The notes below the pieces were generated by a model, which made no database searches, was not told the origin of the DNA, and was given only the letters and a program-made list of their open reading frames with translations. Below, one piece after another: positions 5,102-47,255 of a stretch of 64,000 bases of DNA (the stretch's first letter is position 1; every line of letters starts with the position of its first letter). This DNA comes from Scheffersomyces stipitis CBS 6054. Taxonomy: Eukaryota; Ascomycota; Pichiomycetes; Serinales; Debaryomycetaceae. Both the position numbers and the translations under genes were made by a program. The DNA lies in the NCBI RefSeq assembly GCF_000209165.1, contig NC_009043.1, positions 1,302,001-1,366,000 on the forward strand, given 5' to 3'.

Positions 5102-5522
5102 TCTTATTTATAGGTGTTAATAGAAGTCTTGAAATGAATTTTATGGCTGAAAACTAACGTGCAAAGTGAAAAATTTATATATGAGAACTGTGAAACTATT
5201 TATGAGAGCTTAACTATGGGAGCTTAACTGTGAGATCAGATAGCACATCCATAGCATTAGAAACAAGCTCTTTTCTACATCAAAAGCAAATCTTCCCAGT
5301 CACCAGAAGTTTCTACATAATTTGAACTCTAGTCCCGGCTTTCCCAGGCATGGACCTGTTAGATTGGATTGCTACATTCTTAACTATGGAATCAATTGGT
5401 GCGCACAAAAAAACACATACTTCATATTGATACTTCACCTCCAAACATTTCAATAGAATAAAAACATAATCATATTCATTTCCTCTCCCATCTCATTCTC
5501 TCTGTTTCTTCATATCTCAACT
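5102..5522. promoter_or_regulatory. Divergent IRC6/SEC15 promoter with TTAACTATG elements
   Basis: Two exact TTAACTATG copies lie at 5210-5218 and 5381-5389, the latter preceded by C and followed by G. A one-mismatch copy TTAACTGTG sits at 5224-5232, exactly 14 bp after the first. They are about 110 bp from the IRC6 ATG and about 140 bp from the SEC15 ATG. The same word recurs upstream of COX11, KAE1, RPL30/RPL24, RTN1 and MRPL11. The binding factor is unknown to me. Confidence 0.55.
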
Positions 5523-8084
5523 ATGGCACCCTCTGTGGTCAACGGCTCTAGAAATGGCGATGTCTACAAGGAAAACGGCGAATCCAACAACGCCAAAATA
5601 GATACGCTTCATCTTGAGAACCTTTTGTTAAGAGACGAAAACATCTACGAGACGTCACTCAGCTCCGATGACTACTTGGAGAGTTTGGCACCAATCATCC
5701 AGGACGCTATTAAAGCCAATGGCTTGTCTGAATTGATTCAGAAGTTGAGCGGAATAGTCAAGGAAAAAGACGAAGAATTGAATGACTTGTCGTTGAACTC
5801 TACTGACGAGATCAACTCATGTATCGACACTATCGACGAAATCCATCATGGCTCAACTGAATTGAACAAGAGTTTGATGCTGGTGAGTCAGCAACTCAAC
5901 AAGTCGGCGTTTGAGTTGATGTCACGGAAGAAGTCATTGATCAAGAACAAAGAGGTATCCATCCAGATCAACGAAACCATCGTAGTACTCAATGAGTGTA
6001 TTCAAGTATTAGAAAACACCAATAGAATTCACGAATTGATAAAACAGAAAAACTACTTTAGCGGCTTGAAGCTCATCAACGAATTGACTTCGGTACACTT
6101 GCAAAAAGTTGAAGACTTTAGTTTTGCCAAGAAGATACACGATTCCATTCCTCATCTTACGAAGATGATCAAGGACGAGGCGTTTGAAAACTTGTGCAAA
6201 TGGCTTTCGATAAATTCTGAACGTAAGCTCGATGCTATCAGTGATGGAATCCAGGAAAACATCTACTACTTACAGGATACCTGGACCGAAAAGAAAAAGG
6301 GCAATGACTCCCTAACTCCATACAAATTAAATTCACCAGTTGAACTCTCCTTGAGAGACCCCACGGCTTATTACAATATCTTTGAGGACACTTCGTTGCA
6401 GATCAACTTGGACACGATATTCGATGCCATATTGGTGTACCAAACGTTACACGAAGGCGACATACTATCTACTTTGTACCATAAAGAATGGATGAAGAAA
6501 TACAACAGAGTCATTTACCCCATTACCCTGGCTACAGCTGAAGGTGTAGCACGGTTTCAGAGCTTGAAGGTTTTGGACGACTATTTGCGGAAAATCGGCG
6601 CATTCTTTGTAATGGACAAACAGATCAACTTAGTCACTAAGTTCGAATTGCGTTCTAACACCACTTCAGATGACTTATGGGAGTCATATGTAACCAAATT
6701 GATCCCAGTGCTTTTGGAATTTTTGAAATCGCATAAGTTTAAGAAAATGGATGACTTGCATTCCTTCAAAGAAATCACTGGTAATTTCCTACAGATAATG
6801 GAAAACTACAACTACAGAATCACTGAGCTCTACGAAGTCTTAATGGTTCTCTTCAAGGACTACTTTGCTCCAATGTTGATCCAAGAGTTCCGTTCTGATT
6901 TCATCGAATCCATCCAGTCAGACCACTACATGCCTCTCACAGTAGATAGAAAGAGCGACTACGAAAACATAATGAGAATCTGTTGGTACAGAGAAGATGC
7001 ACCTTTTGCACCTAAAAACGTCACGAAGATGCCCATAACCTTCCCATTCAGTGAAGATTATGTTCACTACTGTCTTGGAGTGCGGTCTTTATTAGAGGAT
7101 ATTATATCATTCATTGGCCAACACTACAGTTACGAGTTAAACGAATTGAATCACATTATAGTAAACGATATATTTGAGAGGGTGTTGGGAGACGAAAAAG
7201 GCGTGGGTATTTGCAGAGATATCCAGGACTTTATTGCCAAAAATGAGAACAATAAGGAAGTTACTTCACAAAGTTATACCAACTTGGAGTACTACTTGTT
7301 CAGTCTTTATGAGATCGGTAAGTTGATTAATCGTCGTCTCAGAAGCAACACTGGTATCGGAATTCATAACATCGATGCCAATGACACCTTCACATTAAGA
7401 GCTGTAGACCATTACAACAACTTGAAGAAATATGCTGAAAGCACCATCTTCAAGATGGTGGACGGAAAGATCAGAGAATTGTTGGATATGGTTGAATACG
7501 ACGACTGGTTACCAACGACAAGAAATTCAGAAGCTAACTACTCTGTGAAGGATTTTGCTCTCTTTTTGGAGAACTTGTTCACATCTATTTTCTCCAACTT
7601 GCCTCAATCCATTAGAACGTTGGGTTTGTTCAGAACATATGATTTTGTTTCAGAACATTTCTTAAGTGTTTTGAACAGTGCTACGGGCTACAATAAAATT
7701 GCTATCGAGAACTTTGATTTGGATATTCAATACGTAGAAGAATCCATGAGGAATCTATACAAGATGCATCAAAGTGGAGAGAGTGAAAGCTCTCAAGGAA
7801 ACGTTGCGCTTGAGACGACGTTTACCGAATTGAGACAATGCATCGATTTGTTGAAGTTGGACGACTATGACGAGTTCATCAAGAACTCTGCATTCAGAAT
7901 GAGAAACTTTGACAGAATCAAATACGAAGACGGAGTGGCATTGATCGCTAAAGTACAAGGCTACCAGGAACCCGATACCAGTCTAAATGCCGACGAAGGA
8001 GACTTTGGTGACCAGCAGTCGATCCTTTCCAACGCTGCCGCTTCCAAGTTTGCGCTGTTTGCAACGAAGTTCCGAAGGGAATGA
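5523..8084 (+). CDS. SEC15: Exocyst complex subunit Sec15
   Basis: The 853-residue protein is the exocyst subunit that links the Rab GTPase Sec4 on secretory vesicles to the tethering complex at the plasma membrane. The N-terminal 40-200 region is predicted helical, with the family pattern of heptads (LxxELxxSLxxVSQQL, residues about 113-125). The rest is the long helical-bundle C-terminal domain containing YYNIFEDTSLQINLDTIF and the closing hydrophobic helices. S. cerevisiae Sec15 is 910 residues, so the gene is full length. One in-frame CTG codon at 5880-5882 (residue 120) would be read as Ser in a CTG-clade yeast. It converges on the small mitochondrial gene with 68 bp between stops. Confidence 0.93.
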   Translation: MAPSVVNGSRNGDVYKENGESNNAKIDTLHLENLLLRDENIYETSLSSDDYLESLAPIIQDAIKANGLSELIQKLSGIVKEKDEELNDLSLNSTDEINSCIDTIDEIHHGSTELNKSLMLVSQQLNKSAFELMSRKKSLIKNKEVSIQINETIVVLNECIQVLENTNRIHELIKQKNYFSGLKLINELTSVHLQKVEDFSFAKKIHDSIPHLTKMIKDEAFENLCKWLSINSERKLDAISDGIQENIYYLQDTWTEKKKGNDSLTPYKLNSPVELSLRDPTAYYNIFEDTSLQINLDTIFDAILVYQTLHEGDILSTLYHKEWMKKYNRVIYPITLATAEGVARFQSLKVLDDYLRKIGAFFVMDKQINLVTKFELRSNTTSDDLWESYVTKLIPVLLEFLKSHKFKKMDDLHSFKEITGNFLQIMENYNYRITELYEVLMVLFKDYFAPMLIQEFRSDFIESIQSDHYMPLTVDRKSDYENIMRICWYREDAPFAPKNVTKMPITFPFSEDYVHYCLGVRSLLEDIISFIGQHYSYELNELNHIIVNDIFERVLGDEKGVGICRDIQDFIAKNENNKEVTSQSYTNLEYYLFSLYEIGKLINRRLRSNTGIGIHNIDANDTFTLRAVDHYNNLKKYAESTIFKMVDGKIRELLDMVEYDDWLPTTRNSEANYSVKDFALFLENLFTSIFSNLPQSIRTLGLFRTYDFVSEHFLSVLNSATGYNKIAIENFDLDIQYVEESMRNLYKMHQSGESESSQGNVALETTFTELRQCIDLLKLDDYDEFIKNSAFRMRNFDRIKYEDGVALIAKVQGYQEPDTSLNADEGDFGDQQSILSNAAASKFALFATKFRRE

Positions 8085-8152
8085 TGTTATGTAGGCATTC
8101 CAAATTATTTATGATGAACAGATACAGTGTAGTTGACTATAATTGATATGGG

Positions 8153-8482
8153 TTATTTCCACATCCATAACTTGTACCATTTTCTGCTTGAATCCGCTTG
8201 TAATTCCAACTTCTTATTGTCGAGTAAGTTCTGGATGGTAGATTCCAACTCCTTGGATCTGGTAGTTAATTCTAGTTCTGTTTCCTCACGCTCAAGTCGA
8301 ATCCAGATGGATTGAAGAATAATATAAGTAGTAGAGGCTGCAAGAAAAGTATGAAAGAGTGGATGTGCGAACTGGCGGATCTGGGGTTTTGGTTGTTGAA
8401 CGGCTTTCGGTTGAAAACCTGCTTCTGGGAATTTAACGGTAGAGTAAGACCTCAATGTTCTGAAAACCGAGATAGCTTTCAT
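8153..8482 (-). CDS. INA17: Small mitochondrial inner-membrane protein, INA17-like
   Basis: The 109-residue protein starts with a basic, hydroxylated presequence (MKAISVFRTLRSYSTV), typical of mitochondrial import. It has one membrane segment near residues 42-63 (FHTFLAASTTYIILQSIWI) and then a charged coiled-coil segment (REETELELTTRSKELES). The end WYKLWMWK and the W-x-x-LExEExE pattern after the membrane segment resemble the C-terminus of Ina17, an assembly factor for the F1Fo ATP synthase peripheral stalk, as I recall it. The protein is shorter than S. cerevisiae Ina17 (about 180 residues), mostly by a shorter N-terminal part. It is divergent from COX11, another respiratory assembly factor. 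The identity should be treated as likely, not proven. Confidence 0.5.
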   Translation of the reverse strand: MKAISVFRTLRSYSTVKFPEAGFQPKAVQQPKPQIRQFAHPLFHTFLAASTTYIILQSIWIRLEREETELELTTRSKELESTIQNLLDNKKLELQADSSRKWYKLWMWK

Positions 8483-8840
8483 TGTGTAAAAGTAATAGTG
8501 TACTGAATTAGATGTAGAAATGCAAGAAGCTGAAAGTAAATGAATAGCAAATATAGGAAGTAATTCTCTAGTTGAATCGGACTATGTATATGAATCTATA
8601 TGGAAATGGATTCTAGAACTGAATCTCCGAAAATGAATTGTATGAGAAGAATGGAAATGATTTCGCTAGCAGTTCTGTTAGTCGCACTCCCATAGTTAAG
8701 CTCGCATAGTTAATTTCGCAATAATTTTTCAGTCTCATTTTTCTACACACCATCAACGATATCAAATACAAAAATTTCAGACCCCGAACAACGTACGATT
8801 CTCTAGAAAACTGTTTATTCCGACGCAGAGAGATAGAAGC
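8483..8840. promoter_or_regulatory. Divergent INA17-like/COX11 promoter with two CATAGTTAA elements
   Basis: CATAGTTAA occurs at 8691-8699 and again at 8705-8713, the two copies exactly 14 bp apart and about 130-150 bp before the COX11 ATG. No gene is visible in this 358-bp stretch. Confidence 0.55.
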
Positions 8841-9680
8841 ATGTTGGGAATACGTTCGTTATCTTTAAGAACAGTCAAGGTGCACCTTGTGCCAGCTAGG
8901 GTGTCCCGTTTGCGTAGTTTGCACTCTTTCTCCCGAGTTTTTCAGGAATTAAATGGCCAGAACCAACCCAACAGACCATTGAAAGTTGGCTCTGAAACCT
9001 TGCAATCTCAAGTTGCAAATGCGAGAAGCGCAGAAAGAGCTCATTTAGATAAGTTAAACAAGGAAAGAGAAGAGAGACAGAAGTTCAGAAACAGAACTGC
9101 TGCCTACTACACTGCTTCATTAGGAGTTGTCTTTCTTTCACTTGCCTTTGCAGCTGTTCCCATTTATAGAGCCATTTGTCAAAGAACCGGATGGGGTGGT
9201 ATACCAATTACCGATACTACTAGATTCACGCCCGACAAGTTGATTCCTCTTGACACTAACAAGAGAATCAGAATCCAGTTCACCTGTCAATCTTCTGGTA
9301 TCTTGCCATGGAAGTTCACTCCTTTGCAACGTGAAGTTTATGTAGTTCCGGGAGAAACAGCTTTGGCTTTCTACAGAGCTAAAAACATGTCTAAGGAAGA
9401 CATAATCGGTATGGCCACCTATTCGGTCACCCCAGACCATGTGGCACCTTACTTCAACAAGATCCAGTGTTTCTGCTTTGAAGAACAGAGATTGAGTGCA
9501 GGAGAAGAAGTCGATATGCCTGTGTTCTTCTTTATTGACCCAGAATTTGCAAAGGATCCAGCCATGAGAAACATAGACGATGTTGTTTTGCATTACTCCT
9601 TCTTCAAGGCAGCTTACTCCGAAGGAGAACTTGCCGCAGTTCCCGTTGCTTCCATAGAAATGAAAGCCACTGTTGCTTGA
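8841..9680 (+). CDS. COX11: Cytochrome c oxidase copper chaperone Cox11
   Basis: The 279-residue protein delivers copper to the CuB site of Cox1 in the mitochondrial inner membrane. It has an arginine-rich presequence (residues 1-35), a single membrane segment near 88-108, and a C-terminal intermembrane-space domain. The copper-binding CFCF motif is at residues 210-213, and the conserved cysteine of AICQRTGWGG is at 113. The family stretches FTCQSSGILPWKF and DPAMRNIDDVVLHYSFF are present. Its length agrees with S. cerevisiae Cox11 (300 residues). It shares a short divergent promoter with the INA17-like gene. Confidence 0.96.
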   Translation: MLGIRSLSLRTVKVHLVPARVSRLRSLHSFSRVFQELNGQNQPNRPLKVGSETLQSQVANARSAERAHLDKLNKEREERQKFRNRTAAYYTASLGVVFLSLAFAAVPIYRAICQRTGWGGIPITDTTRFTPDKLIPLDTNKRIRIQFTCQSSGILPWKFTPLQREVYVVPGETALAFYRAKNMSKEDIIGMATYSVTPDHVAPYFNKIQCFCFEEQRLSAGEEVDMPVFFFIDPEFAKDPAMRNIDDVVLHYSFFKAAYSEGELAAVPVASIEMKATVA

Positions 9681-11989
9681 AGCACCAAAAGGTGAACGAC
9701 ACTTATTCTTTAGACTCCCTAAACGAACCTTTATGACCAACACCAGTTTGCCCTTTTGTAAATAGCTTTGTACATATGCCTAGGATTATACGTAAACGAA
9801 TATATGCATAATATTGCAACCGTTGGATACCGAAGTTATGTCAATTTACATTGTCACTCCACCCCCGCGTAACTTATAACAAAAGCCATTGAACAAGTTT
9901 CCCATTACAGCCCCATAGCTTCCGATTGGCCCTCTGTAGAGAAATTACCAAGTTGCAAAAAAGCGAGAAGCGGATCAGCATTGCATAGGAAAAGTACGCC
10001 ATTGGCTCAAAAAAAAAAAAAGATGCACTGCAACTACTAGGTGTGGGAGTACATTGCAAATCAATTACGGTAATGTTATATGTAACTATTTCAATATTGT
10101 GTGTTTTCCATTGTTGATGTTCATGTAAACTTTAACTGATTAATGCAACTTACAAGAGTTAAATTCTACCCAATAAGTGTCCGTCCTATTCCAATTACCA
10201 CACAAATTTTTAAGTTTTTCAAGATCAACCTAAATAAATTTCAGACTTCCTATACCATTCTTTATACACTTACCACTACTGGCTACTTTTAGCGGGCATG
10301 TGTAAAAGGGATTGAGGCTCCAAGCCCCCTCTGTTGCAAACAAAGCCTTAGATTACCCGCCCGTCGAACAATTTAAGTTAGATAAAATAATCATGCAGCC
10401 CGTAATTAAATAATAATACAATATGACAGAACAAATATATTTTCCGCGGATTGCATTTTTGATGAATCAACTGAAAATTTGTTGCAACTGACCTGTTCCT
10501 AACCATAGCTTTGATGGGTGGGATTCTTCTCCCACAAATCTTGGCTCCATCAAGCCACATGTCTCCTGAGTTCAAATTCTTGGCAGAATGAAACTGGCTA
10601 AAAGTCCTCTTCCAAGAGCATTCTTCTACGCATCTAAAATCGTCCAATAGCTCAACGAGGCTGGGTTGACGTATCAGTAAGGATACTTTCCTTAAGTAAA
10701 GATCAATCTGATAACTTTGATCGGTCTAGCCCCCACGTAATTGTTGGTTTGCTCCCCTGCAAGACTTGCACCTGCAGCATACCAGTTTCCTGGGCAGCAA
10801 ATAATATATTGATAATTGAAGTTAAAATACACAAAGACCAAGTTCCCTTGTGATACCGGAAACTGGATTCAATACCGAATACAAGGCAGTAATTATATTT
10901 TTTATTTTTGAACGCAACCAGTTACTCGTAGATATTCGGAACAAACCCATGTTGCAGAGCTTTCCGGCACTTGAAGTTCTTAAACTATTTGCAAAGCGAA
11001 CACCTATTTCTACCCGAAAATAAAACAATGTTAGTAACCTTTTATGGTGTGCGAATTTTTTTTTCAATTGCATGGTAACCATTCTTTCCACCAGTGCACA
11101 AAATATGCAAGATTACCAAAAATTAGTAAAGTAACATCTGCGTCCCAGTGTGTATTGGGTTGAATTTGTGATGTGGAATCCTATTCTCCATTTTGCCGGG
11201 TCCTCTAGATGTTCGTTTTTGTTGCATCGCCTCTTACTTCAGGTGCCGTTTTGTATTTTTATGATTTGTTCACCATACAAACCTGTTACCTTTATGGCTC
11301 GATCAGTGATAGTACCCTATTCCAGTTAAACTACAACTCAATTTGTAGAATATTCCATCTCTGAAAAACCTCTTTCTGCAACGGCTGGGTTCTCAATTTC
11401 TCATTTGTATTTCGTTTCTGTTCTGGGTCTTACCTTACTTGGTATCATCTTATATGTTGTTGACTTGGGCATTTTCGTAACTCTTCTGCTGAATGATAAC
11501 CATGAAAAGTCTCCAAAAAATAAGAATGCAGATGGCCAAGCACAGCAACTTGTTATCCAGCCCAAGCAGTAGAAAATGGTGAGATATTCTTTTCTACATT
11601 TAGCTATTGTATGTCAACTATCCAAGGTTAAGAAAATATATTAGCCCCTTGTCTTTGGATCAATAATCCTTGCTTTTTCGAAGGCTATAATTGGCTGTAG
11701 TGCCAACAAACTATTGGCCGTTGAGATATCAAATCTGCAGATGCTAGTGCGAATCCGTCCAAGCTAACAAAATTCTGTAATCAGATTGGCTGAAATCGAG
11801 CATCGCCGAGATAAAAAAAAATATAATTTCAAATTGACATGCATAATTCTAAATACAGGAAAAATTGCATTTCACATTTCCTAAGTTTGTTCCTGAATTT
11901 GCTGAACATCCGAAGCAATCCTGAAGATCTCAAATATATTGCCCAAACAAATGGCTAGACACAGAGTAGACTTTAATGACGAAAGTAAT

Positions 11990-12018
11990 GGTGCCGGTTA
12001 GGGTGGTGCCTATTAGGG
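11990..12018 (+). repeat. Two 14-bp direct repeats ending in TTAGGG
   Basis: GGTGCCGGTTAGGG (11990-12003) is followed after one base by GGTGCCTATTAGGG (12005-12018). The two units match at 12 of 14 positions. TTAGGG is the core bound by Tbf1 in Candida-clade yeasts, so the pair could be a double Tbf1-type site, but the function is inference. Confidence 0.5.
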
Positions 12019-12513
12019 CAATTCTTTCAGGAGTGCTGCGAGGAGTCTTAACCGAGTTAATTCTTTGATCGTTTTTTAGATTTCAGAAGGTGAATTCGAC
12101 CAATGCCGATCTGGCCCATTCACACAAAAATCATTACACTTAAAACTCCTCTTGGCATGAGAGACAGTTGCGTGCATATATAAGCCTACTCGCAATCTGT
12201 GTCAAAAAGTTAATGCCTTAATCGGAGCACTTCTCATGGAGAGAACTTGGTGGTCTATGTAAGGCGGGAAAGGCTACCCAGGTGTCACTGAAAACATTGC
12301 CAATGTCATTGGCTGCTTGAAGACGAATTCTAGAAAGCTTAAGTACTTGGCATTCCAACCGTTTTCGTCTTGACAATGAGCTTGGAAACTTCATTTCAAA
12401 AAAAAAAGAAAATAATGAAAGGCTTGTAATGTCCTCGGAAATACAGCAGGACGACACATAACGTATGCATAAAAAATATTACAAACAGTTCTGAGAATGT
12501 CTGCATGTATCCC

Positions 12514-12522
12514 ATCTGATAA
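12514..12522 (+). promoter_or_regulatory. ATCTGATAA, iron-responsive GATA-type site
   Basis: This is an exact match to ATCWGATAA, the extended site bound by fungal iron-sensing GATA repressors (Sfu1, Fep1, SreA family). It lies 154 bp before the ATG of a ferric reductase, which is the class of gene such repressors control. A second exact copy is at 10706-10714, far upstream. Occupancy is not shown. Confidence 0.5.
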
Positions 12523-12675
12523 ATTTTTATCTTTCCCATCAATGAATTTTTGATTCGTCCATTGGTATTTAAAGGGTGCTAATTGGCAAGTGAATCGAAA
12601 TGCATCCCTTGTTGTAGGCTCTTGTATCTTGTAGCAGTATCAATTTCAGACTCTCATACTTATACCTCTGCTAAT

Positions 12676-26897: not shown

Positions 26898-27516
26898 AAT
26901 GGATGAAAAATGATGTTGATAAATTGAAAATCCGGATACTCCAAGAAGGTAATGACGAAGGTTATAAGTGCAAAGTATCAAGGTACTTGTAATGGAATAT
27001 GTTGTAGGTTGGTAGAACGAATATTGAGAAGTGATAAATAAATTCTGTGCGAAGAGCTCATAGTTAAGACTACATAGTTAAGACTACATAGTTAAGAAAT
27101 GAGAATCGAAAATTGCGACAGCAGCAGTTGCAGGAATCAGATCCGAGATTCAAACAAACATAAACAAACATCTACAACTTTTAGAAGTCACACTTATATA
27201 TTCTAATATCATTCTATTCGTAGGGACACCAAAAGTGTTTGATAAATTTACATTACAATTTCCACCATAGCAGATATCTATTCAGATTTAATTGGAATTG
27301 TTTCATATTTGATATTGGAAATATTTTAGTACTCGTTTGGAGAGATATACATATATTATCAAATATATCCAAATAACTTCCATACTATCCAAAACATCTG
27401 CTATCTCCTGTTTCCATCAATAGGGTGTATTTTGATATTAAACTATTACGAATTACTGTCTTGATACAAGCACAACAGAACTCATCATACTACATTTCCT
27501 ACATTCAATCTTCATT
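26898..27516. promoter_or_regulatory. KAE1/SPC34 divergent region with triple CATAGTTAAG array
   Basis: CATAGTTAAG occurs at 27059-27068, 27073-27082 and 27087-27096, each spaced exactly 14 bp, about 160-200 bp before the KAE1 ATG. SPC34 starts a further 420 bp away. No gene is visible in the 619 bp. Confidence 0.6.
27059..27096 (+). repeat. Tandem array of three CATAGTTAAG units, 14-bp period
   Basis: Three perfect CATAGTTAAG cores separated by ACTA, period 14 bp, the last followed by AAATG. The same core and the same 14-bp spacing recur upstream of COX11 and SEC15, which argues for a functional multi-site element rather than chance slippage. Confidence 0.6.
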
Positions 27517-28664: not shown

Positions 28665-29146
28665 TTAAGCAATAGAAGTAAGGATGTCAGAGTCACCAGC
28701 GTCCAAAACAGACAAGGTACCGACTCTGAACAACTTACCACAGACAGTACCCAATTCGTTGTTACCACCTTGGAAGTAGTAGACTGGGGTCTTGGACAAC
28801 ATGGCGTAGTATTCCAATTCAGACTTTCTCAAAACTGGAGTGTTACCAGCAATGATGACCAACTTGGCCTTACCAGTTCTCAAGGACTTGACAACGGACT
28901 TGTAACCAAGGGTGTACTTACCAGACTTGATAACTAAACCTAACTTGGCGTTAATGTTTTCTTGGTTCTTAGATTTTGGGGCCTGAAGATGTTAGTATGA
29001 AGCCTAAGGGCTGTGTGATGTGCTGAATCGTTATAGTCATTATGGTATTACATTAATGTTTCATAAAGTATAAGTGCCTTTCATTTCTGAAAGTTCACTC
29101 GACTAGTGGTTCGTGGCAGACATCGTTAAAATAGTATACGGACCAT
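28665..29146 (-). CDS. RPL30: 60S ribosomal protein L30 (eL30), one intron
   Basis: Exon 1 is the ATG alone (29144-29146) and exon 2 runs 28982-28665, giving 106 residues. The intron (29143-28983, 161 nt) ends TACTAAC-ATCTTCAG, and its donor is the unusual GTCCGT. Exon 2 reads [20 protein letters not shown] and then the full L30 fold with [21 protein letters not shown] residues, ending [11 protein letters not shown]. cerevisiae RPL30 also has a one-codon first exon and a non-consensus donor (GTCAGT). A kink-turn structure overlaps the start codon (29141-29176). The gene converges on SPC34 and is divergent from RPL24. Confidence 0.93.
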
Positions 29147-29176: not shown

Positions 29177-29684
29177 TTGAGGTGATTGTAGAAGAAGTAG
29201 AAGAGATGGAGATATAAATTATGCAAGCAGTTTAAACGAGTGAAGAGTAGCAAAATTTTTCAGATTTCTGTGTGCAGGTACAGTCTCTATGGTGATTCCT
29301 CTAAAGGTTTCAGTTGACTTAACTATGGCCGTAGCGAGTTTTTCGTAAAGTATGAGAAAGGAAAAATGCGCACTAAAAAATGCAGTCACAGTACCACGTG
29401 ACATACGCCTGACTTATTAACTGTACTTCCTCTCAATGACCTGCATATCATACACGAATTAACTATGAGATTTTCATTTTTCATACTTCGCGGCCTCCAT
29501 AGTTAACGCTGTAGCCCTGGCTGACTTCGCACTAAATGCTGATTCTGCCTAACTTAACTATGTGCCTGCAGATAGTCTTCTCACCTTCAGACTTTGCCCA
29601 CTATGGGCGATTCTGGATTAGAAAAATTTTAGTAGATTTTTTTCTAATATATGTGTAGAACGTCTTCATAGTAACCAATAATAG
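29177..29684. promoter_or_regulatory. Divergent RPL30/RPL24 promoter with four TTAACTATG elements and an E-box
   Basis: TTAACTATG (or its complement CATAGTTAA) occurs at 29319-29327, 29459-29467, 29498-29506 and 29554-29562, the densest cluster in the window. CACGTG at 29395-29400, followed by AC, is a Cbf1-type site, which marks ribosomal-protein promoters in Candida-clade yeasts. Factor identity is inferred. Confidence 0.6.
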
Positions 29685-30088: not shown

Positions 30089-30097
30089 TTAATAAAA

Positions 30098-31934: not shown

Positions 31935-32128
31935 GTCCGACTTCAACTACTCTCAATTCATGTCAAGTAGTATTTCGCAGGGTACATGGATGAAATGGAA
32001 ATTCGCACTGCACTTTGAATGGAAAGACACGCAATGGAACTTGTACAGATGAACTTCTTTATTGAACACAGCTAGTGTAAAAAAGAAGAACCACTAACAA
32101 CATATGATACTTGACGGAACAAAAAGAA

Positions 32129-32202
32129 TGGTCCCTAGCAGGATCGAACTGCTGATCTTGGCGTTATTAGCACCACGCCTTAACCAACTGGGCCAAGGGA
32201 CC
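32129..32202 (-). tRNA. tRNA-Ile(AAT)
   Basis: The complement folds as a 74-nt tRNA starting GGTCCCTTGGCCCAG and ending in the T-arm GCAGTTCGATCCTGC, acceptor GGGACC and discriminator A. The anticodon AAT sits in the loop TGCTAATAA. It closely matches S. cerevisiae tRNA-Ile(AAU). No intron. An A-run at 32121-32125 gives the Pol III T-run terminator. An identical copy is at 49894-49967. Confidence 0.95.
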
Positions 32203-37452: not shown

Positions 37453-38898
37453 ATGAAACCTACTACAATATTTTTAGAGTTGGCTCTTATTCATGGAATA
37501 GTAGCGTCTGCTGCTGCTGGGGTCAAGGGATTGTTATCGCTATCTCTCTTCTCAAACTCAACGCAATGTGCCTGGAAAGAAGTAGCCGGAACACAGTCGC
37601 ATGTGTTAATTTGTAACACAACGTACCATGCTTCTGGAACAGCGGCAAATGGTACTTTTCCATGGGCTTCTGCAAAAGACTTCTTGAATATCCCCTCTCA
37701 TTTTGTTTTGGAGGCTCCAGGAAACACAATAGAGGATGCTGAAGAACCAGATTGTGAAACAGAGCTTGAAGATGATGACGTCGATGAAGACGAAGGTAAT
37801 AGCGGCGGTATTGAGAGTAGTGAAGTAGAGGAGGATCTTGAAGATGAAGAAGAGGAAGTTGAGGAAGAGGAAGATGAGAAAATGGAAGACGAAACTGAAA
37901 GTGAATATGAAGAGCTAGATGATACAGATGAAGAGGATAATGGCGAATTTCATCACACATATATCAATGGAACCACTTCGAGATACAATTGGAAAATCTC
38001 TTCTACCAACACTCTCCCAACGGCTACTTACTCACACATAACTTCAAGTCCATCAAACCATTTCACCTTAACATACGACTTCCCAAGCAAGTCATCACGA
38101 AAAAGCAACGAATTTCTCTTTGAAGATGATGGCCACTTCCGTATTGGATTTGGCAGAACAACCACAGGGACAACACTCTTTCCTCGCATAACGCTTGTTG
38201 ATGACGGTACAACCTCATATGTAATTGAGCCTCCAGTAATCTCTACATCCACGAGTGTCGCAAGCGATATACCAAAACAACCAATTACAGAGGATAATTC
38301 AGTAACTAGTTACATGGAAAGGACTTCTCCTGAAAGCACAGAAAGTTTTATTACACTGGAGAATCTGGAGAGTCTTTTTACTACGTTTAAATCCCCTTGG
38401 CAACATTATACAACTACAAGAAATGACCTCCTCACATGGCCGAAAACTACGTCGACACCCACAACTATTGGAATCATTCCCAGTTCCACCCGAACCTCTA
38501 GCAATCCTGCTCTTCTTGAAGGGAGCGTTTTAACTTCTTCTAAAATGCGTACAGTTTCAATAAGCTCTTCGCAAATTGCGAGACCCATTAAGGCAATCTC
38601 TAAACATACTGGACATTCTACAATAACTTCAAAAAGAATCAGAGATACATCAACCACATCTAGTACAACTAGCTCCAAGCCTCACTCCATTAAACAGACT
38701 AAAGCAAATAAGTATATCACTAGTTCACTTCCTTCTACGCTAGTCAGTGCTAACAAGACTGCCCTAAATTTCACCAAGAGCTTTGGGGGTGTAATCTACA
38801 ACAACAGAACCATCAACTACTTTTCAGCTTCTAGGGGAATAGAGATCTCCTGGATGCTTGCACCTATCCTTATATTGTTTTTTATAATGAGTTTATAG
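37453..38898 (+). CDS. Acidic, Ser/Thr-rich GPI-type cell-surface protein
   Basis: The 481-residue protein is not one I recognise. It has a signal peptide (residues 1-22, ending AAAG), several N-glycosylation sites (NST, NTT, NGT and others) and one strongly acidic stretch (residues about 94-163, mostly D and E). A long Ser/Thr-rich part (about 180-440) and a hydrophobic C-terminal tail (SWMLAPILILFFIMSL), with small residues before it, fit a GPI anchor signal. This is the layout of yeast cell-wall mannoproteins. The ATG at 37453 is used because the upstream extension starts with TTG and lacks a signal sequence. Role unknown. Confidence 0.7.
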   Translation: MKPTTIFLELALIHGIVASAAAGVKGLLSLSLFSNSTQCAWKEVAGTQSHVLICNTTYHASGTAANGTFPWASAKDFLNIPSHFVLEAPGNTIEDAEEPDCETELEDDDVDEDEGNSGGIESSEVEEDLEDEEEEVEEEEDEKMEDETESEYEELDDTDEEDNGEFHHTYINGTTSRYNWKISSTNTLPTATYSHITSSPSNHFTLTYDFPSKSSRKSNEFLFEDDGHFRIGFGRTTTGTTLFPRITLVDDGTTSYVIEPPVISTSTSVASDIPKQPITEDNSVTSYMERTSPESTESFITLENLESLFTTFKSPWQHYTTTRNDLLTWPKTTSTPTTIGIIPSSTRTSSNPALLEGSVLTSSKMRTVSISSSQIARPIKAISKHTGHSTITSKRIRDTSTTSSTTSSKPHSIKQTKANKYITSSLPSTLVSANKTALNFTKSFGGVIYNNRTINYFSASRGIEISWMLAPILILFFIMSL

Positions 38899-39085
38899 CG
38901 ATTGCAAATGCCATACTTATAAAGAAATAATGTAGTGCGCACTCTTTATTTCTACTGATAGATTTTGCCTTTAATATTAAACAATCTCAAACTACAAGAA
39001 GTATTGCAAAAATACAAAATTGCTAATTTATTTCCTAACATTTATTCACATCATAGCAAGAATTAGCAATCTACAATCCTCTGCG

Positions 39086-42000
39086 ATGTCTACGTTGCCA
39101 TCGTCATGGACGCAGTTTCAATTGTTTGATTATACTCCAATTCGTGATCCTAATTTCCAAACAAACGATTCCTTATACTCCGACGCCAGTCTTCTGGCCA
39201 TCCATGCTACCAACTCATATTTAGTCATTGCTACCAATAATGCATTTCTAAAGATTATAGCCAGTAAAAATCTCCAACTTCTCAAAACGTTCATTGCGTA
39301 CGATTTGGATTATAGAATTAGTTTCGTACGTAGTTTACCCAACTCGGATTTATTAATCACCTTGGCCGAAAAACAAGGTTCACCATCAATTGTCAAGCTA
39401 TGGGACTTGAACAGAATTATCCATCTCCAAGAAGAGGACCAAGACGTACTAAAATTCAAATTTCAAACTCAGGCTCTCGTAACTAATGCAGACAACTCTT
39501 ACCCTATCAGTTCCTTTGAGTTCAGCAGCGATCTTACTTGTATCGCCATAGGGTACACCAATGGAAAAGTGATATTGATAAGGGGAGACTTGCTAAGAGA
39601 TAGAGGATCCAAACAGCGTTTGATCTACGAGTCAACAGATCCAGTCACAAACATAGCATTCAACAAATATGAGGACTTATTGTATATAACGACTACTTCC
39701 AAGATTCTAACAGTACTGACCTCGGGCAGAAACCAGAGAAAACCACAGAGAATCTTGTCCAACAAAACAGGAATCGATTTGAATTGCTCTGTAATTGATC
39801 CTAAGAGTCAATACTTGATTGTTGGAACAACTGATTCTATCCGCTACTACAGTCACTTGAACAAAATCAGGACAATCAAATTCGAGATTCCCAAATCTAG
39901 AATCTTTCGTTTTGGCAAGAATTACCTTCTTATTGTTTCTCCACACCAGCAGGAACTTTTAGCCCAGGAATCGATTTCGAAGAAAAAGAAGTCGTTTGCC
40001 AGAGTATTGATTCTAGATATCTTTAACAAGCATATTTCATTTAATTTCATGATCCCCGATAATACTATCAACCATGTGTTTGTGATGCAGAATGACGTTC
40101 ACTTACTTTCTAATGATGGTGTTCTTTATAAGTTGCACGAAAAACCAATCAATCAACAAATTGAGTCCATAATACAGAGAGAATTGTTTCCAGTGGCTTA
40201 CAATCTTGCTGTACAGGCAAGCATGCCAAACGATTTATTATTGAGAATCCAAAAGTTGTATGGTGATTTCCTATATGAGAAACAAGAAAATGAGGCATCA
40301 ATTGATATCTATATTAAGTGCTTGGACTTGTTTGAAAAGCTGGTGGATTCTCAGGGTGAATCTGTAGACCAAGAGGACGACTTGGATGACTTCGTTATGA
40401 CCGTTATTACAAAGTTCAAGGACGCTGCTAATATTCCAAACTTAACAAAGTTTCTTTTCAAATTGTACGAATTGAAAGAAGCTAACAATGATCACATCAC
40501 ATTACTTTTGTGTTGCTACTGTAAATTGAAAATGACAGAAGAGTTAGATAAATTTATCAACGACTTGGATTTAGATGAGGACAACAATTTGCAAGATTTG
40601 AACTTCCAGTTGATCATAAACTTGTTCAAAGAATGTGGATACTTCACTCAGGTAATAAGGTTGTTGTTTCGCTTGAATCAACCTAACTTGATAGTAGGTA
40701 TTCAGCTTAACGATCTCAAACAACCTAGAAACTCTTTGAACTATATAAAGTCATTGCCAATTGATGAGCTTTTGCTTATATTGACTGAACATTCAAAGAC
40801 ATTCCTCGACGATTGTCCTATTGAAACAACAGAATTGCTTATTAATGTATTTACAGGAAAGTACATTCCAAATGGAGATCATACAGAACCATTTAGTGCC
40901 GAGATTCTGTCCAAAAAAGAGGAAAAATCCGAAGAAACTGAAGCACCTTCTACTTTGAATAACTATAGAGCTTTTCTCAACTATTTGTCAGGCAACTCAA
41001 CTGATGATATTAAATCAAACAACTCAAATGAATTAAGTGTTGAAATTCAGGAACCTACTTATCTACCACCCAGACCTAGTTTAATTTTTCCAAGCTTCAT
41101 CAATCATCCAAATCAGTTTGTGATCTTCTTGGAGGCATGTATTGAATCTTTTGACAAATATCAAGGTAACATGAATGATAAGAAGGACCTATTGATCACA
41201 CTTTTGGAGATGTATCTTTCATTGTCTAAAGAATCAAAGACCAATTCCGCCGAGGAAGAGTGGAAGAACAAAGCTAGAATCTTACTACAGGAAAATTCAT
41301 CCCTCTTGAACAATTCGTCGCTTCTTCTTCTATCCAACATTTATGATTTCCAAGAAGGAGAAGCATTAGCAAAAGAAAAAGCAGGACATGAAGAAAGTCT
41401 CCTTCATTCGTATCAACTTTCAGGCGATATTTCTGGTTGTTTCGATTTGCTACGAAAGTATGGCGAAAAAAAGCCTGAGATGTATAAGCTCATGTTGAAG
41501 TTTGTTGTTTCCAAGAAAGAGATTTTTGAAAGAATCAATCCATTGGAATTTCGTTTCCTCTTCGATACAATAAGCTCAAGAAAGTTGATGAATCCGCTCG
41601 AAATTTTACAAATATTGACTGAAAATCCAGCTAACGACTTTATCACACTCGGACTTATCAAAGATTATTTGATCGATTATTTCGACAACCAGAATAAAGA
41701 AATCAGTAACAATACGAAGTTGATAGGATTTTATGAAGGAGAATCAACCAAGAGTTCTCACAAGTTGACGGAATTGACTAACAAGCCATTTGTCATTCAG
41801 AACAACAAATGTTCGGCCTGTGATAACAAGCTTGATTTCCCTGTAATTCACTTCAGGTGTAAACACTCTTATCATCAGAAATGTCTTACTGACTACGTTA
41901 TCGCATCGGTACAGGAGGATATGTCTGGAGAAAGAAGATGTCCTAAATGTGTCAATGAAATAGAAGAGATCAAGGCTATTAGAGCTGGACAATTCAAATC

Positions 42001-42124
42001 CAAGGAAAACCTCGAATTGTTTGAAGGAACTTTGAACGAAACTCAAGATAAGTTTAGATATATAAGCGAATACTTGGGGAAGGGTGTTATGGAGAACGAA
42101 TCTGTGGTTCTCTTTAATGAATAA
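39086..42124 (+). CDS. VPS11: Vps11/Pep5, core subunit of HOPS and CORVET tethering complexes
   Basis: The 1012-residue protein is a shared core subunit of HOPS and CORVET, which tether vacuolar and endosomal membranes. It has an N-terminal beta-propeller-like part (about 1-350), a long alpha-solenoid, and a C-terminal RING-H2 zinc domain near residues 908-960 (CSACDNKL, FRCKHSYHQKC, RRCPKC). The start MSTLPSSWTQFQLFDYTPI matches the family start, WRQFQFFD. S. cerevisiae Pep5/Vps11 is 1029 residues. The ATG at 39086 is used; the frame from 39020 starts with TTG. IVY1, whose product binds the HOPS subunit Vps33, also lies in this window. Confidence 0.93.
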   Translation: MSTLPSSWTQFQLFDYTPIRDPNFQTNDSLYSDASLLAIHATNSYLVIATNNAFLKIIASKNLQLLKTFIAYDLDYRISFVRSLPNSDLLITLAEKQGSPSIVKLWDLNRIIHLQEEDQDVLKFKFQTQALVTNADNSYPISSFEFSSDLTCIAIGYTNGKVILIRGDLLRDRGSKQRLIYESTDPVTNIAFNKYEDLLYITTTSKILTVLTSGRNQRKPQRILSNKTGIDLNCSVIDPKSQYLIVGTTDSIRYYSHLNKIRTIKFEIPKSRIFRFGKNYLLIVSPHQQELLAQESISKKKKSFARVLILDIFNKHISFNFMIPDNTINHVFVMQNDVHLLSNDGVLYKLHEKPINQQIESIIQRELFPVAYNLAVQASMPNDLLLRIQKLYGDFLYEKQENEASIDIYIKCLDLFEKLVDSQGESVDQEDDLDDFVMTVITKFKDAANIPNLTKFLFKLYELKEANNDHITLLLCCYCKLKMTEELDKFINDLDLDEDNNLQDLNFQLIINLFKECGYFTQVIRLLFRLNQPNLIVGIQLNDLKQPRNSLNYIKSLPIDELLLILTEHSKTFLDDCPIETTELLINVFTGKYIPNGDHTEPFSAEILSKKEEKSEETEAPSTLNNYRAFLNYLSGNSTDDIKSNNSNELSVEIQEPTYLPPRPSLIFPSFINHPNQFVIFLEACIESFDKYQGNMNDKKDLLITLLEMYLSLSKESKTNSAEEEWKNKARILLQENSSLLNNSSLLLLSNIYDFQEGEALAKEKAGHEESLLHSYQLSGDISGCFDLLRKYGEKKPEMYKLMLKFVVSKKEIFERINPLEFRFLFDTISSRKLMNPLEILQILTENPANDFITLGLIKDYLIDYFDNQNKEISNNTKLIGFYEGESTKSSHKLTELTNKPFVIQNNKCSACDNKLDFPVIHFRCKHSYHQKCLTDYVIASVQEDMSGERRCPKCVNEIEEIKAIRAGQFKSKENLELFEGTLNETQDKFRYISEYLGKGVMENESVVLFNE

Positions 42125-43163
42125 CTACTATTACTATAATATATGGAACAGAAATGGGCATGAAAACTAAGCCGTGATTCAAGAAGAAGCAAATGTAGAT
42201 CAATATGATATGTGAATTACTATATTAACCAAACAGGGTTGTTGGTAATGTAGGTTATGGTAACACAGCGGAAATGGATATGGCTGCAAATGAGATAACT
42301 GCCGTTACCAATTTCTATAATTAGGCGTTCAAGTAATGCAATTTTTCAGACAGACCACTGCGACTGTTCAGAGTATGTGAAATTATGCAAAAAGGAAGAA
42401 GCCACTGTGGCCATTCTACTCAGCTACGTGTTGATGCCAACAATGGCTGATGAGTACGTTTCATCTTTAGAAGTTTTAACAAAATTGAAACACCCAAATG
42501 TGGGTCCATTGATGAGGCTCCACAAAAAAACGAACACCTGTCGTTGGCAGATCTACAGAGTTGAGGTATGTGGCAAGACATGGAAAGAGCGAGAAGCATT
42601 GAGAAAGCTATAGAAACGCGTTGCACTCTACAACTGCGAGTAAGATCCTGTAGATGGCTCCCGCCCCAAAGATCGCAACCATGGAGGATGGCAAAGAGAA
42701 AACCACGCTACAATGCGGTCCACTTGACTCAGTCGATAAATCAGTCTTGTGACAAAATCAAAGTGACGAGGGTTTCTCGCAAAATGGGGAAACGATTCTC
42801 ACACTTATTCGCGTTCGACACAGGAAAGAAAAATTTTATACATATCTAGGAACCGCTGCCTCCTTCAATTATCAGGGAGTCTTTTTTCCTTATCAATTCA
42901 TCTTGAACCGAGTTGAAACCAGACCCATTGATACATCCCTATCGACTCCGACGCCTGTCTCGACCTCTAGCCGAAACAGAATCTGCCGCTTGTTTGAATC
43001 ACTCAACTAAACATCCCATCCCCAACCCTTAACTACTGACAGTCCTAGGTTTCTGACATAGTTAACTCCCACCCGTGAAATAATCTAAATCTTCACTATC
43101 TTTCCCCCCCCTGGATTCGCCCTCCGCTTCTTAATTGCAACACATCAAATTTTTCCTACAACA
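42125..43163. promoter_or_regulatory. VPS11-RTN1 intergenic region with a CATAGTTAA element
   Basis: No gene recognised. CATAGTTAA at 43057-43065 lies 107 bp before the RTN1 ATG, with a related TTAACTACT at 43029-43037. A pyrimidine-rich stretch with a C-run (near 43100-43110) follows. Confidence 0.5.
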
Positions 43164-44378
43164 ATGTCTACTACTACACCTGTTGCCAACGAATGTGCTA
43201 CCTGCTCCTTGTTGACCTGGAAGGATCCTATCTTCACTGGTAAAGTTTTTGGAGGTATTGTTGCCTCTTTGTTCGTATTCAAATACGTCAACTTGATTAA
43301 CCACGTCTTCCACTTTGCCTACATTGCCTTATTGGGTACGTATTTTTTGATATATTTAGAACTTCAGATCCATCCTGAAGTGTTCATTTCGTCGCCTACT
43401 TGCTTTAGTTGCAATTGTCCATTCTGCCATTCCCATTGGTGGCCATTCCATCCTTTTTTTGTAGTCGCACTATCGCATCTTGATCCACACTTTTCAACCT
43501 CTGAAAAGTCTACACAAAATACATCAAATTTCATTTATGTGTTGGACTAAGATTTTCAACCGATTATACGACAATCATTGAGCATCTCCACAATTGTTGC
43601 TGTGGTTAGCGAGTCGTTGATCATCCATAATAGTGCGATAATGAATAATTTACAATGGCTGAAGGCTTGAAATATGAACAAATTTCTATTCTATGCTCTC
43701 TTACTAACATTAATAGTCTCTGCTGCTGCCGAATACGCCGGTAAGTTGGTCACAGGCCAAGGCTTCGTCACCAAGTACAAGCCAGCTGTCAAGTCGTATG
43801 CTAAGAAGGTCAATGACTCCGTCTTACCCCAACTCGCCGAGTTAAACTTGAAGATCGAAGAAGAATTCCAAAAGATTGTTTACTCCCACGACGTGGAAAC
43901 CACCTTGAAGGCTGCTGGTCTTTCTTACATTTTGTATAAGCTTACTTCCTGGTTCTCTTTGTTCACCTTGCTTGCCACTGCTGTTGTCATTGTTTTCACT
44001 GTCCCAGTAATCTACCAAAAGAACAAGAAGGAAATTGACGCCCTTGTAGCCCAATACTCCAAGTTAGCCAAGGACAAGTCGGCTGAATACACTAAGGCTG
44101 CCCATAAGGCTGCTGCTCCACATATCGAGACTCTTGTCAACAAGACCGGTCCAGTTGGTAACTTCATCAAGTCCAAATTCCCTACCAGAACTGCTGGTTC
44201 CACTGTTGGCGAAAACAGAGATGCTTCGTTTGGAACTGCTGCTGACGAAATCTCGTCCGCTACCACTTCTGGTGCCTCCAAATTCCCAGATGTCCCAAGC
44301 ACTTTGTCTGAAGGCAAGAGTCAAGTAGAAGAATTCGTGGATTCAGCCCAAGAAGCCAAGTCAGAATTCAACTTCTAA
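43164..44378 (+). CDS. RTN1: Reticulon-like ER-shaping protein, one intron
   Basis: Exons 43164-43335 and 43717-44378 join to give 277 residues; the split falls after the first base of a Val codon. The intron (381 nt) has donor GTACGT, branch TACTAAC at 43702-43708 and acceptor AG at 43715-43716. Exon 1 carries the reticulon start LLTWKDPIFTGKVFGGIVASL with the first hairpin membrane segment. Exon 2 carries the linker, the second hairpin (YILYKLTSWFSLFTLLATAVVIVF) and the end of the domain (VPVIYQKNKKEID). Reticulons bend the ER membrane into tubules and stabilise nuclear pores. The unspliced first frame runs into the intron, so it should not be annotated as a separate 128-residue gene. Confidence 0.9.
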
Positions 44379-44656
44379 GTTGTTTGCTGACTTTTAAGCT
44401 CTTGTCATACAAGGCTGAGTATGCTAGTCTGGCATATGTAGTTGACATTTGCAACTCATAGCGAAATTGGTCCCTTGTTTTGTACTCCTGTTCGGTAACT
44501 AGGTTCATGTATTGCTATGTACTTCAATTCATCGATGTTTGTTATATTGAAATTGATATTGATCCCTTTTTATAGCACTTGGACTTATCTTATTATATTT
44601 ATTTTAGTTGTACTAATTTAATATTGTAGCTATTTTACATTGACTATAGAAACATT

Positions 44657-45589
<933 letters not shown>

Positions 45590-45914
45590 CTACGAAGAAG
45601 TAAGCTAAGATGAGACTGAGATTTTTCAGAGATGCAAAAACTTTTTTTAAAGTGCAGTTCAGTGTTGCGTAAATCTTTAGTATGGAACAAGATACGAAAC
45701 TGATAATGACTCTTCATAACACAAATCAAGGAGAACATAATGTGGCTGTTTCATGAAGATCAAACCATGATAATTAAAATTAGAAATTACGTGTTAATAC
45801 CCACTTCTTTACCAGCATTTCGCTTTTTGATAGACTGATACATCTATATTATGGTCTATTTACAGAATGTTACTATTCAAGGTATATGCACATTACTTTT
45901 GGGGGACTTATGCC

Positions 45915-46682
45915 CTACAGAGACTCTTCTTCGCTCTTTTCGCTTGGATCGAGGTCCTTAAGACGTTGCTCCATCGTCAAGTATAACACCGAGGAAGCTG
46001 TTTCCAAAGTTCTGACGAGGCCAGCACCTCCCAAGATAGTAAGCAAACCAGCTAATTGGGCCTGTAATTGTTCTTTGTTGGGCAAGTCCTTGAACTTGTT
46101 GATTTCAACTACGTCGAAAACTGAAGACTCGACCCTAGCACCAATCAAGATCAACTTATCCTGGGCATTCTTTATAACTTTCAAAACATCATTGACTACG
46201 GATGGCTCACACTTGGGGATAGTGATCACGGCAGTAGGCCCATTCAACAACGGTGACAACGGATGTTTCACGCCACGGTTCTTGTTGGTAACTCCAGCAG
46301 CTGCTGGATCACTTTCGTGTTCTGATTTCAAGTAGACGTTGTAGATACTGTTTCTAATGACATTCAATTGTGCTCCAGCCTTCTTCAAGTCGGATCTGAC
46401 CTTCTTGTTGTCTGCTTTTGCGACATTATTGTGATGTACAAACAACACAATGTCATTGCTGTCGTTTAAATGCTTGTAGTAGTCCATCAAGAAGGTCTTT
46501 CTGGAGAACAATGCCTTTTCTGTGTTTCTCTGTTCGAACAGATCATATTGCTGTGGTTGACTTGTCGTGCTGTAGAAGGCAGAAACTGGCGAAATTCCAC
46601 GAAAATTCTTACCGAGACTTGGCAGCACCGTTCTATATATGCCTGCTCTTATTCCTCCCAAAATACTCGTCTTCAAGCTCAT
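45915..46682 (-). CDS. MRPL11: Mitochondrial large-subunit ribosomal protein uL10m
   Basis: The 255-residue protein is the mitochondrial version of ribosomal protein L10, at the base of the L7/L12 stalk. The ATG at 46682 gives a presequence (MSLKTSILGGIRAGIYRTV, then SAFYSTT), whereas the longer frame to 46787 starts with GTG. The uL10 fold shows RKTFLMDYYKHLNDSNDIVLFVHHNNV, LKKAGAQLNVIRNSIY, the NGPTAVI strand and the closing LAGLLTILGGAGLVRTLE. A TTAACTATG element lies about 110 bp before the ATG (46794-46802). Confidence 0.85.
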   Translation of the reverse strand: MSLKTSILGGIRAGIYRTVLPSLGKNFRGISPVSAFYSTTSQPQQYDLFEQRNTEKALFSRKTFLMDYYKHLNDSNDIVLFVHHNNVAKADNKKVRSDLKKAGAQLNVIRNSIYNVYLKSEHESDPAAAGVTNKNRGVKHPLSPLLNGPTAVITIPKCEPSVVNDVLKVIKNAQDKLILIGARVESSVFDVVEINKFKDLPNKEQLQAQLAGLLTILGGAGLVRTLETASSVLYLTMEQRLKDLDPSEKSEEESL

Positions 46683-47255
46683 ATTGGTTCTTCTGGTCTC
46701 TGCAGATTCTAGCAGTTCTAGAGCTTTTACCTGGACATCTAAATTTTTCAGACTGGTGAAAATGCGAGCCACACGACTTCTGATCACATGAGCTTAACTA
46801 TGGTCGTTGACGAGATTAAGGCAAAGGGCCAGAGCAATGAAGGTTTTGATAGCTGTAAATGAACCAGTTGGAGCATATATTCAAGCACGTAGCATTCAAA
46901 TATTATGTGTTATCATTTCTAACTATTTTTGAATATGTGGAGATCTCTTATTTATGAGAAGTTTGATTTATCCGCAAATAGGGCCCGAAAAGTCTGAAGT
47001 TGTCGAAGTTTTTAGTTGATAAGTAAAACATATCAACAATTCCAATAACTTAAATGTATATTCAATCATCTCTTCTGCTTTTGAAGTCATACTTTTAGAT
47101 TCTTCCTGGTAGCCCATTCACAAGCTTTAACAATTGCAGTTGCAAATTTCTCCGGTGTATGCGCACGACCTGAAAATAGCGACTTTGAAAAATCTCCATA
47201 ATTTTAAGATTTGTAGAGAAAATAGTAGCGTTTATTCCTTGTTCTTTGGAACTCT
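46683..47255. promoter_or_regulatory. Divergent MRPL11/RNase III promoter
   Basis: CTTAACTATGG at 46793-46803 is about 110 bp upstream of the MRPL11 ATG. No other conspicuous element and no gene is visible in the 573 bp. Confidence 0.45.

Follow-up and report, generated by a model that had tools for sequence, protein, structure and literature searches.

A strict and often tandem promoter word in Scheffersomyces stipitis, probably the site of a protein that acts like a general regulatory factor

Introduction

In Saccharomyces cerevisiae, Rap1 has tandem sites at highly expressed genes. The factors holding housekeeping promoters open are reported to be exchanged from one yeast clade to another, and a comparison of Hemiascomycota, with the general regulatory factors Reb1, Abf1, Rap1 and Cbf1, reports a set of promoter words that changes between clades, CACGAC being specific to Candida albicans (PMC2897762). 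In C. albicans, the ribosomal protein genes are reported to be under the control of Tbf1 and Cbf1 (PMC2834713). Here we describe a nine-base word, TTAACTATG, that recurs in the promoters of Scheffersomyces stipitis CBS 6054 and was noticed in a stretch of 64,000 nucleotides (C3:1302001-1366000 of contig NC_009043.1, called the window throughout). It is a genuine and strict promoter element and, with its longer form CTTAACTATGG, is probably the site of one sequence-specific DNA-binding protein acting like a general regulatory factor.

The sites described in the Hemiascomycota are likewise short strict words in the promoters of growth genes; their sequences differ from TTAACTATG, and S. stipitis lies outside the strains listed (PMC2897762). 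As in the Tbf1/Cbf1 system of C. albicans, the word is found at some ribosomal protein promoters, but it is neither TTAGGG nor CACGTG and occurs beyond ribosomal protein genes too. Read on the other strand, as CCATAGTTAAG, it has CCATA in common with the S. cerevisiae Rap1 site, CCCATACA, although the second half differs, with G rather than C after CCATA. It also has the TAAC core of c-Myb/R2R3 elements, and an R2R3 Myb gene is present in the genome; however, the word is strict over nine bases and has A, not G, after AAC-N.

Few readers of lineage-limited promoter words are known, and the S. stipitis word, strict, arrayed in tandem and with no obvious known reader, makes one such case testable in a transformable yeast. 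For xylose-fermenting S. stipitis it would also provide a ready part for strong promoters. In an S. stipitis toolset, a primer named Ptef1 starts at GTTAACTATGAA, which contains the word, and the TEF1 promoter is reported as the strongest of seven tested (PMC10449509).

Abundance and strictness of the word

Thirteen exact copies of TTAACTATG are present in the window on either strand, which is the count given in the original prediction; the coordinates given there are right as well, save that the copy placed at 5381 begins at 5380. The prediction put the chance expectation at about one, and 100 dinucleotide-shuffled versions of the window agree, with a mean of 0.72 copies and a maximum of 3. 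Across the 15.44 Mb of the genome (eight contigs), 607 copies were counted, 300 on one strand and 307 on the other, whereas the control word, TTAACTATG read backwards, gave 279; the 11-mer CTTAACTATGG occurs 163 times against 16 for its reversed control. Genome counts near expectation, which would have refuted the prediction, were thus not seen. The genome mean is 2.5 copies of TTAACTATG per 64 kb, or about one per 25 kb, and the window is therefore about five times denser. In 29 non-overlapping control loci outside the window, 3 copies were found in 32.1 kb of intergenic DNA, where 0.49 would be expected, and none in 55.2 kb of open reading frame (ORF) DNA.

Ranked among intergenic 9-mers after de-duplication, TTAACTATG is 3rd of 3354 with the window included and falls to 421st of 978 when the 29 control loci are taken by themselves. 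A rank of 2nd of 1137 was set aside as a partial artefact of window dominance and of the overlap of two control loci, L058 and L059, which made two copies count double. This slight inflation also affects the control-locus figures behind the substitution table, the pooled-site and word-density comparisons, the known-factor word counts, the ORF and cluster-orientation tally and the GGTATGGA figure given below.

The word tolerates little change. Allowing one mismatch in the 11-mer gives 599 further places against 433 for the control, an excess of 166, of which about 136 are estimated, from the flank proportions of the sample, to be copies that keep the 9-mer with one changed flank base. The leftover of about 30 on a background of about 340 is within counting error, and no tolerance of internal substitutions is detectable genome-wide. 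A sampled table of single substitutions likewise gave no excess (44 intergenic against 50 for reversed words), in a sample partly chosen for exact copies. In the flanks, C precedes the word in 32 of 52 cases and G follows in 29 of 52, and CTTAACTATGG is the best form of the word.

Position, orientation and tandem arrangement

All 13 window copies lie outside ORFs of at least 100 amino acids and are spread over six promoter regions, which bears out the claim that they are upstream. As for the statement that most lie some 105-200 bp before an ATG, the distance to the nearest ATG is 107-198 bp except for the four RPL30/RPL24 copies, which are 544-779 bp from the RPL24 ATG. Of these, the closest to RPL30 stands some 180 bp off the ATG predicted for that gene from its intron; RPL30 itself was identified by eye from its translated second exon. 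The copies, with those of a companion motif, CGCACT, are as follows.

5210..5218, plus strand: copy of TTAACTATG in the IRC6/SEC15 divergent promoter, with a one-substitution copy, TTAACTGTG, 14 bp further on
5380..5388, plus strand: copy of TTAACTATG preceded by C and followed by G, 143 bp upstream of the SEC15 ATG
8683..8688, plus strand: CGCACT adjoining the INA17-like/COX11 pair, on the strand opposite to TTAACTATG, unlike the same-strand pairing seen genome-wide
8691-8699 and 8705-8713, minus strand: head-to-tail pair with a period of 14 bp in the INA17-like/COX11 divergent promoter
27059..27095 (copies at 27059, 27073 and 27087), minus strand: head-to-tail triplet with a period of 14 bp in the KAE1/SPC34 divergent promoter, 170-198 bp upstream of the KAE1 ATG
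29319..29327, plus strand: copy of TTAACTATG in the RPL30/RPL24 divergent promoter, the copy closest to the predicted RPL30 ATG (about 180 bp)
29369..29374, plus strand: CGCACT in the RPL30/RPL24 promoter
29459..29467, plus strand: copy of TTAACTATG in the RPL30/RPL24 promoter
29498..29506, minus strand: copy of TTAACTATG in opposite orientation, which with that at 29459 forms one of the two convergent pairs within 30 bp in the genome
29528..29533, plus strand: CGCACT inside TTCGCACT in the RPL30/RPL24 promoter
29554..29562, plus strand: copy of TTAACTATG in the RPL30/RPL24 promoter
43057..43065, minus strand: copy of TTAACTATG 107 bp upstream of the RTN1 ATG, the upstream neighbour having the same direction
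46794..46802, plus strand: copy of TTAACTATG 120 bp upstream of the MRPL11 ATG in a divergent promoter

The gene names of the original prediction were largely upheld: Pfam families agree with SEC15, COX11, KAE1, SPC34, RPL24, RTN1 and MRPL11, IRC6 falls in the adaptin-binding p34 family, and the INA17-like protein had no Pfam match. The closest named relative of the window's MRPL11 comes from Scheffersomyces xylosifermentans, at 74%.

Avoidance of coding DNA extends beyond the window. Among the first 30 copies listed, all on C1, 27 lie outside ORFs of at least 100 amino acids, compared with 16 of 30 reversed-word copies (p 0.003), so that coding and intergenic densities are not equal; counted as about 21 separate places, 18 of 21 are outside ORFs (p 0.02). 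A pooled set of 112 sites was taken from the window, 22 stretches of C1 and 25 loci chosen for tandem copies. Leaving aside three sites inside ORFs, 80 have an ATG no further than 1200 bp away and 29 have none at that distance. Of the 80, 45 lie 50-200 bp before the ATG, where the intergenic background is 26.5%, and the median distance is 166 bp. The word points with the gene at 43 sites and against it at 37, and this indifference to orientation argues against a signal at the RNA level or an upstream ORF or start codon.

Clustered copies are arranged head to tail. There are 57 same-strand pairs genome-wide, 22 with a gap of 0-5 bp and 35 with a gap of 6-36 bp, against one control pair in each class. 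Adjacent head-to-tail pairs with a gap of at most 30 bp number 48, after removal of five pairs that span a middle copy; at the same distance, other arrangements are limited to two convergent places (control 1) and one divergent place (control 0). The commonest periods are 14 bp (11 pairs), 15 bp (7), 13 bp (5) and 11 bp (5). No looser consensus emerged from the copies at +14, where 19 rows (control 0) comprise 11 exact second copies and 8 others, 3 of the 8 being one subtelomeric repeat. A few arrays with identical spacers (C2:513966, C3:1329059) may be local duplications, and no difference is seen among three 11-bp pairs in subtelomeric DNA; in many other arrays the spacers differ. An identical tandem pair, TTAACTATGCCTTAACTATG, is found at C2:8570, C4:8441 and C4:16450, near several contig ends, and these copies are probably one duplicated stretch. 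On C2 this pair lies about 0.2 kb past the stop of an ORF resembling those at C1:6857 and C1:15459.

The word is often found between divergent genes. Over the window and the 29 control loci together, divergent intergenic DNA (7.6 kb) contains 10 copies, same-direction intergenic DNA (20.5 kb) 5 and convergent intergenic DNA (5.0 kb) none, and one more copy is at a locus edge; the reversed word gave 3 divergent, 6 same-direction, 4 convergent, 4 at edges and 14 in ORFs. The window supplies 13 of the 16 copies in this tally, in which all four copies at RPL30/RPL24 count as same-direction because the ORF calls missed RPL30. Outside the window, the clusters with both neighbours called are 14 divergent, 9 same-direction and 1 convergent (on C1), leaving out 22 at edges and 3 in ORFs; compared with the window's 8 divergent, 14 same-direction and 7 convergent regions, the divergent share gives p 0.03.

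Several individual places were also seen. Two copies of opposite orientation, C1:1191166 and 1191275, lie between genes for an RRP6-like exonuclease and a C2H2 zinc-finger protein, in a control locus chosen for another word (L059). A tandem pair at C2:2462187-2462218 (L104) lies some 0.95 kb ahead of the SANT match in the gene at L123. At three loci (L098, L113 and L115), at least two copies stand in some 1.6-1.8 kb with no ORF of more than 90 amino acids, and Rfam found no known RNA in these stretches. Rfam at gathering thresholds found no RNA genes beside sites in 20 chosen loci.

Companion words and neighbouring genes

Within 150 bp of a site, CGCACT has a density of 0.93 per kb, compared with 0.15 in control intergenic DNA. 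Genome-wide, 12 rows (11 distinct copies) have it on the strand of TTAACTATG and no more than 30 bp downstream, against 0; on its own it has no excess in the window (13 against 13.6). A second word, TGAAAAAT, which we take to be RRPE-like, has 0.98 per kb near sites and 0.43 in control intergenic DNA. CACGTG is not co-enriched (0.47 against 0.46 per kb) and TTAGGG is rarer near sites (0.21 against 0.46 per kb). On the strand of the site, AAAAA is about twice as dense from -50 to +100 as further out. GCATCAGAA was dropped as a companion, with only 2 copies near sites.

The genes beside the sites were surveyed with Pfam, using 54 proteins from site loci (two of them exons of one gene) at E 0.001 and 25 distinct proteins from control loci (26 scanned, RRP6 twice, through L058 and L059), the latter first at 1e-8 and 1e-6. 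A second scan at 0.001 of the six control proteins that had no family turned up no ribosomal protein. The families at site loci include Rpb2, Rpb3, TIP49/RVB, Med12, Rad4, prefoldin, NatB, P-type ATPase, Band 7, Romo1, RRG7, EMC10, ubiquitin, Sec15, Cox11, TsaD/Kae1, CGI-121, Spc34, DIM1, PIG-S, sybindin, acyltransferase and choline transporter-like proteins; presumably PMA1, RVB1 and MGR2 are among these genes. Ribosomal or mitoribosomal proteins make up 5 of the 54 (S10, L24e, L10, L23 and DAP3) and 0 of the 25 controls (Fisher p 0.17), and two of the 25 controls have Zn2Cys6 domains. In the original prediction the word was said to look like a housekeeping-gene element specific to its lineage. 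The promoter element is borne out, with many neighbours from the core machinery, while the skew in gene class is small. An element specific to ribosomal protein genes was rejected: besides RPL30/RPL24, 14 upstream stretches of ribosomal protein genes were located, and the exact word, in 3 of them (RPS23, RPL19, RPS15), is present without being defining. CACGTG and TTAGGG were each found in 7 of these 14 stretches, so the Cbf1/Tbf1 arrangement of C. albicans may persist in S. stipitis.

What the word may be, and which protein may read it

The genome-wide excess, the avoidance of ORFs, the position before genes in either orientation, the head-to-tail repeats, the strictness and the company of CGCACT and A-tracts together make a double-stranded protein-binding site in promoters the most likely nature of TTAACTATG. 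Among the features looked for in the site of a general regulatory factor, over-representation in promoters across the genome, a strict word of high information and a place 50-200 bp before the ATG regardless of orientation are found here; the lists of neighbouring genes suggest many unrelated housekeeping targets, with no significant contrast to the control proteins. One sequence-specific protein would bind the word as double-stranded DNA, at one to several copies 50-200 bp before the start codons of what appear to be broadly expressed genes, often between divergent genes; clustered copies are nearly always head to tail and mostly 11-15 bp apart. Next to A-tracts, the bound protein would maintain a nucleosome-free gap, support transcription in both directions and raise expression.

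Several points weigh against this reading. The window overstates the abundance of TTAACTATG. In the 32.1 kb of control intergenic DNA, the Cbf1-type word TCACGTG was counted 21 times (palindromic copies counting twice) against the 3 of TTAACTATG, which is therefore not the leading promoter word of the genome. Sites in clusters cannot count as independent, the window contributes 8 of the 10 divergent copies to the tally with the control loci, and the A-tract profile was drawn without a control word. Of the pooled sites, the 29 without an ATG within 1200 bp are so by crude gene calls, and some copies are subtelomeric, adjoining repeated ORFs. The contrast in gene class is suggestive only, a housekeeping bias being statistically unsecured at p 0.17, and the exact word is in only 3 of the 14 ribosomal protein stretches.

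The same figures bear on the possibility, which we hold to be real if rather unlikely, that the word marks a growth regulon of translation and mitochondrial biogenesis and is read by a regulon-specific activator with no general role in opening chromatin. The enrichment of TGAAAAAT near sites, the five ribosomal and mitoribosomal proteins against none and the three ribosomal protein stretches with the exact word would all fit such an activator. The targets are nevertheless diverse (P-type ATPase, Rad4, exocyst, acyltransferase, choline transporter-like), the ribosomal contrast is not significant and 11 of the 14 ribosomal protein stretches are without the exact word. Use of the word as a replication-origin element instead of a promoter element seems very improbable: one copy per 25 kb or so in intergenic DNA would resemble origin spacing, yet copies peak 50-200 bp before ATGs, form clusters of 2-5 and are absent from the 5.0 kb of convergent intergenic DNA, though one convergent case is known on C1. 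An artefact of chance or composition, inflated by the choice of a rich window, can practically be dismissed, as the fivefold density of the window is set against a tenfold excess of the 11-mer and pair excesses of 22 to 1 and 35 to 1.

As to the protein that would act like a general regulatory factor, the words of Reb1, Abf1, Rap1, Tbf1 and Cbf1 do not match TTAACTATG, and among the literature matches listed for the letters of the word no title suggested a factor site, judged by title and start of abstract. The search for candidates covered Myb-domain proteins, of which the genome has 19 matches, and four Myb loci were read. One, L122, is Reb1-like and keeps the RMPxDCRDRWR stretch of fission-yeast Reb1, so that Reb1 specificity should be kept. 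L121 looks to us like Cef1 and L123 like Ada2 (ADA2). L120 encodes an R2R3 Myb whose nearest solved structure is c-Myb, and its alignment to c-Myb preserves the KQCRER and DNAIKN stretches; we take it to resemble FlbD, and baker's yeast is not known to have an R2R3 Myb of the c-Myb/FlbD type. The shared AAC core makes L120 the most attractive candidate. Sites of c-Myb read YAACNG, with G wanted two bases past AAC.

That the R2R3 Myb at L120 reads the word through its TAAC core is a question about the protein and is compatible with a site of general-regulatory-factor type. The genome encodes this c-Myb-like protein, its repeats align to c-Myb and TTAACTATG holds the Myb core AAC, but the expected G is A in the word and YAACKG is not in intergenic excess (95 against 89.7 scaled coding); we regard the assignment as tentative and improbable. 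A plain c-Myb-type element was rejected, AAC being followed by TA in the word. Similarly speculative is a wider proposal, that an undescribed factor, possibly an R2R3 Myb of the c-Myb/FlbD type, took over part of promoter opening in Scheffersomyces, reading head-to-tail arrays of CTTAACTATGG with a second factor, likewise without an assignment, at CGCACT.

A diverged site of Reb1, Rap1 or Tbf1, all of them Myb-type proteins, is less probable still. The end of the telomere G-strand, CTTGCGGTATGG, shares CTT and TATGG with CTTAACTATGG, and the role of Reb1 may have altered, TTACCCG being without clear excess (4 intergenic against 1.8 scaled coding and 5 reversed). Nor were the Abf1 pattern, CCCATACA (0 copies) or YAACKG clearly in excess in the intergenic sample. 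However, the recognition stretch of Reb1 is kept at L122, TTAGGG is rarer near sites, and 16 of the 19 telomere-like CGGTATGG copies near sites come from two subtelomeric loci. A Reb1 site was rejected, the word differing from the TTACCCG core, and so was a Rap1 site, the word being neither CCCATACA nor a word of the telomere-repeat kind. A Tbf1/Cbf1 site was rejected on the absence of TTAGGG and CACGTG from the word and of their co-enrichment near sites. A site derived from telomeres was dropped as well: GGTATGGA occurs 4 times near sites against 0.38, yet the CGGTATGG copies just mentioned are largely those of the subtelomeric loci at C1:6857 and C2:7070.

Other features of the sequence

In the RPL30 gene (window 28668-29146, minus strand), a TACTAAC branch point precedes the second exon. 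The first exon may be the ATG at 29146; next to it, GTCCGT would be a non-standard 5' splice site, which we take to be reminiscent of the autoregulated intron in S. cerevisiae RPL30. Besides the Cbf1-type TCACGTG, two further words with no factor assigned to them here are mostly intergenic in the window and loci L039-L068: TTTGCACC, with 13 intergenic and 3 coding copies (8 and 2 without the window), and GTGCGCA, with 11 and 2 (2 and 2 without the window).

Ten contig ends were read (eight starts, L069-L076, and two ends, L077-L078) and carry a tandem 24-bp telomere repeat with the G-strand ATCTTTTCACGTCTTGCGGTATGG. By our own alignment, part of this repeat, CTTGCGGTATGGATC, resembles the telomere junction and Rap1 motif given for C. 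albicans (PMC2834713). At C2:8629-8859, on the minus strand of L008, telomere-like units open as a repetitive AVWIFSRL reading frame.

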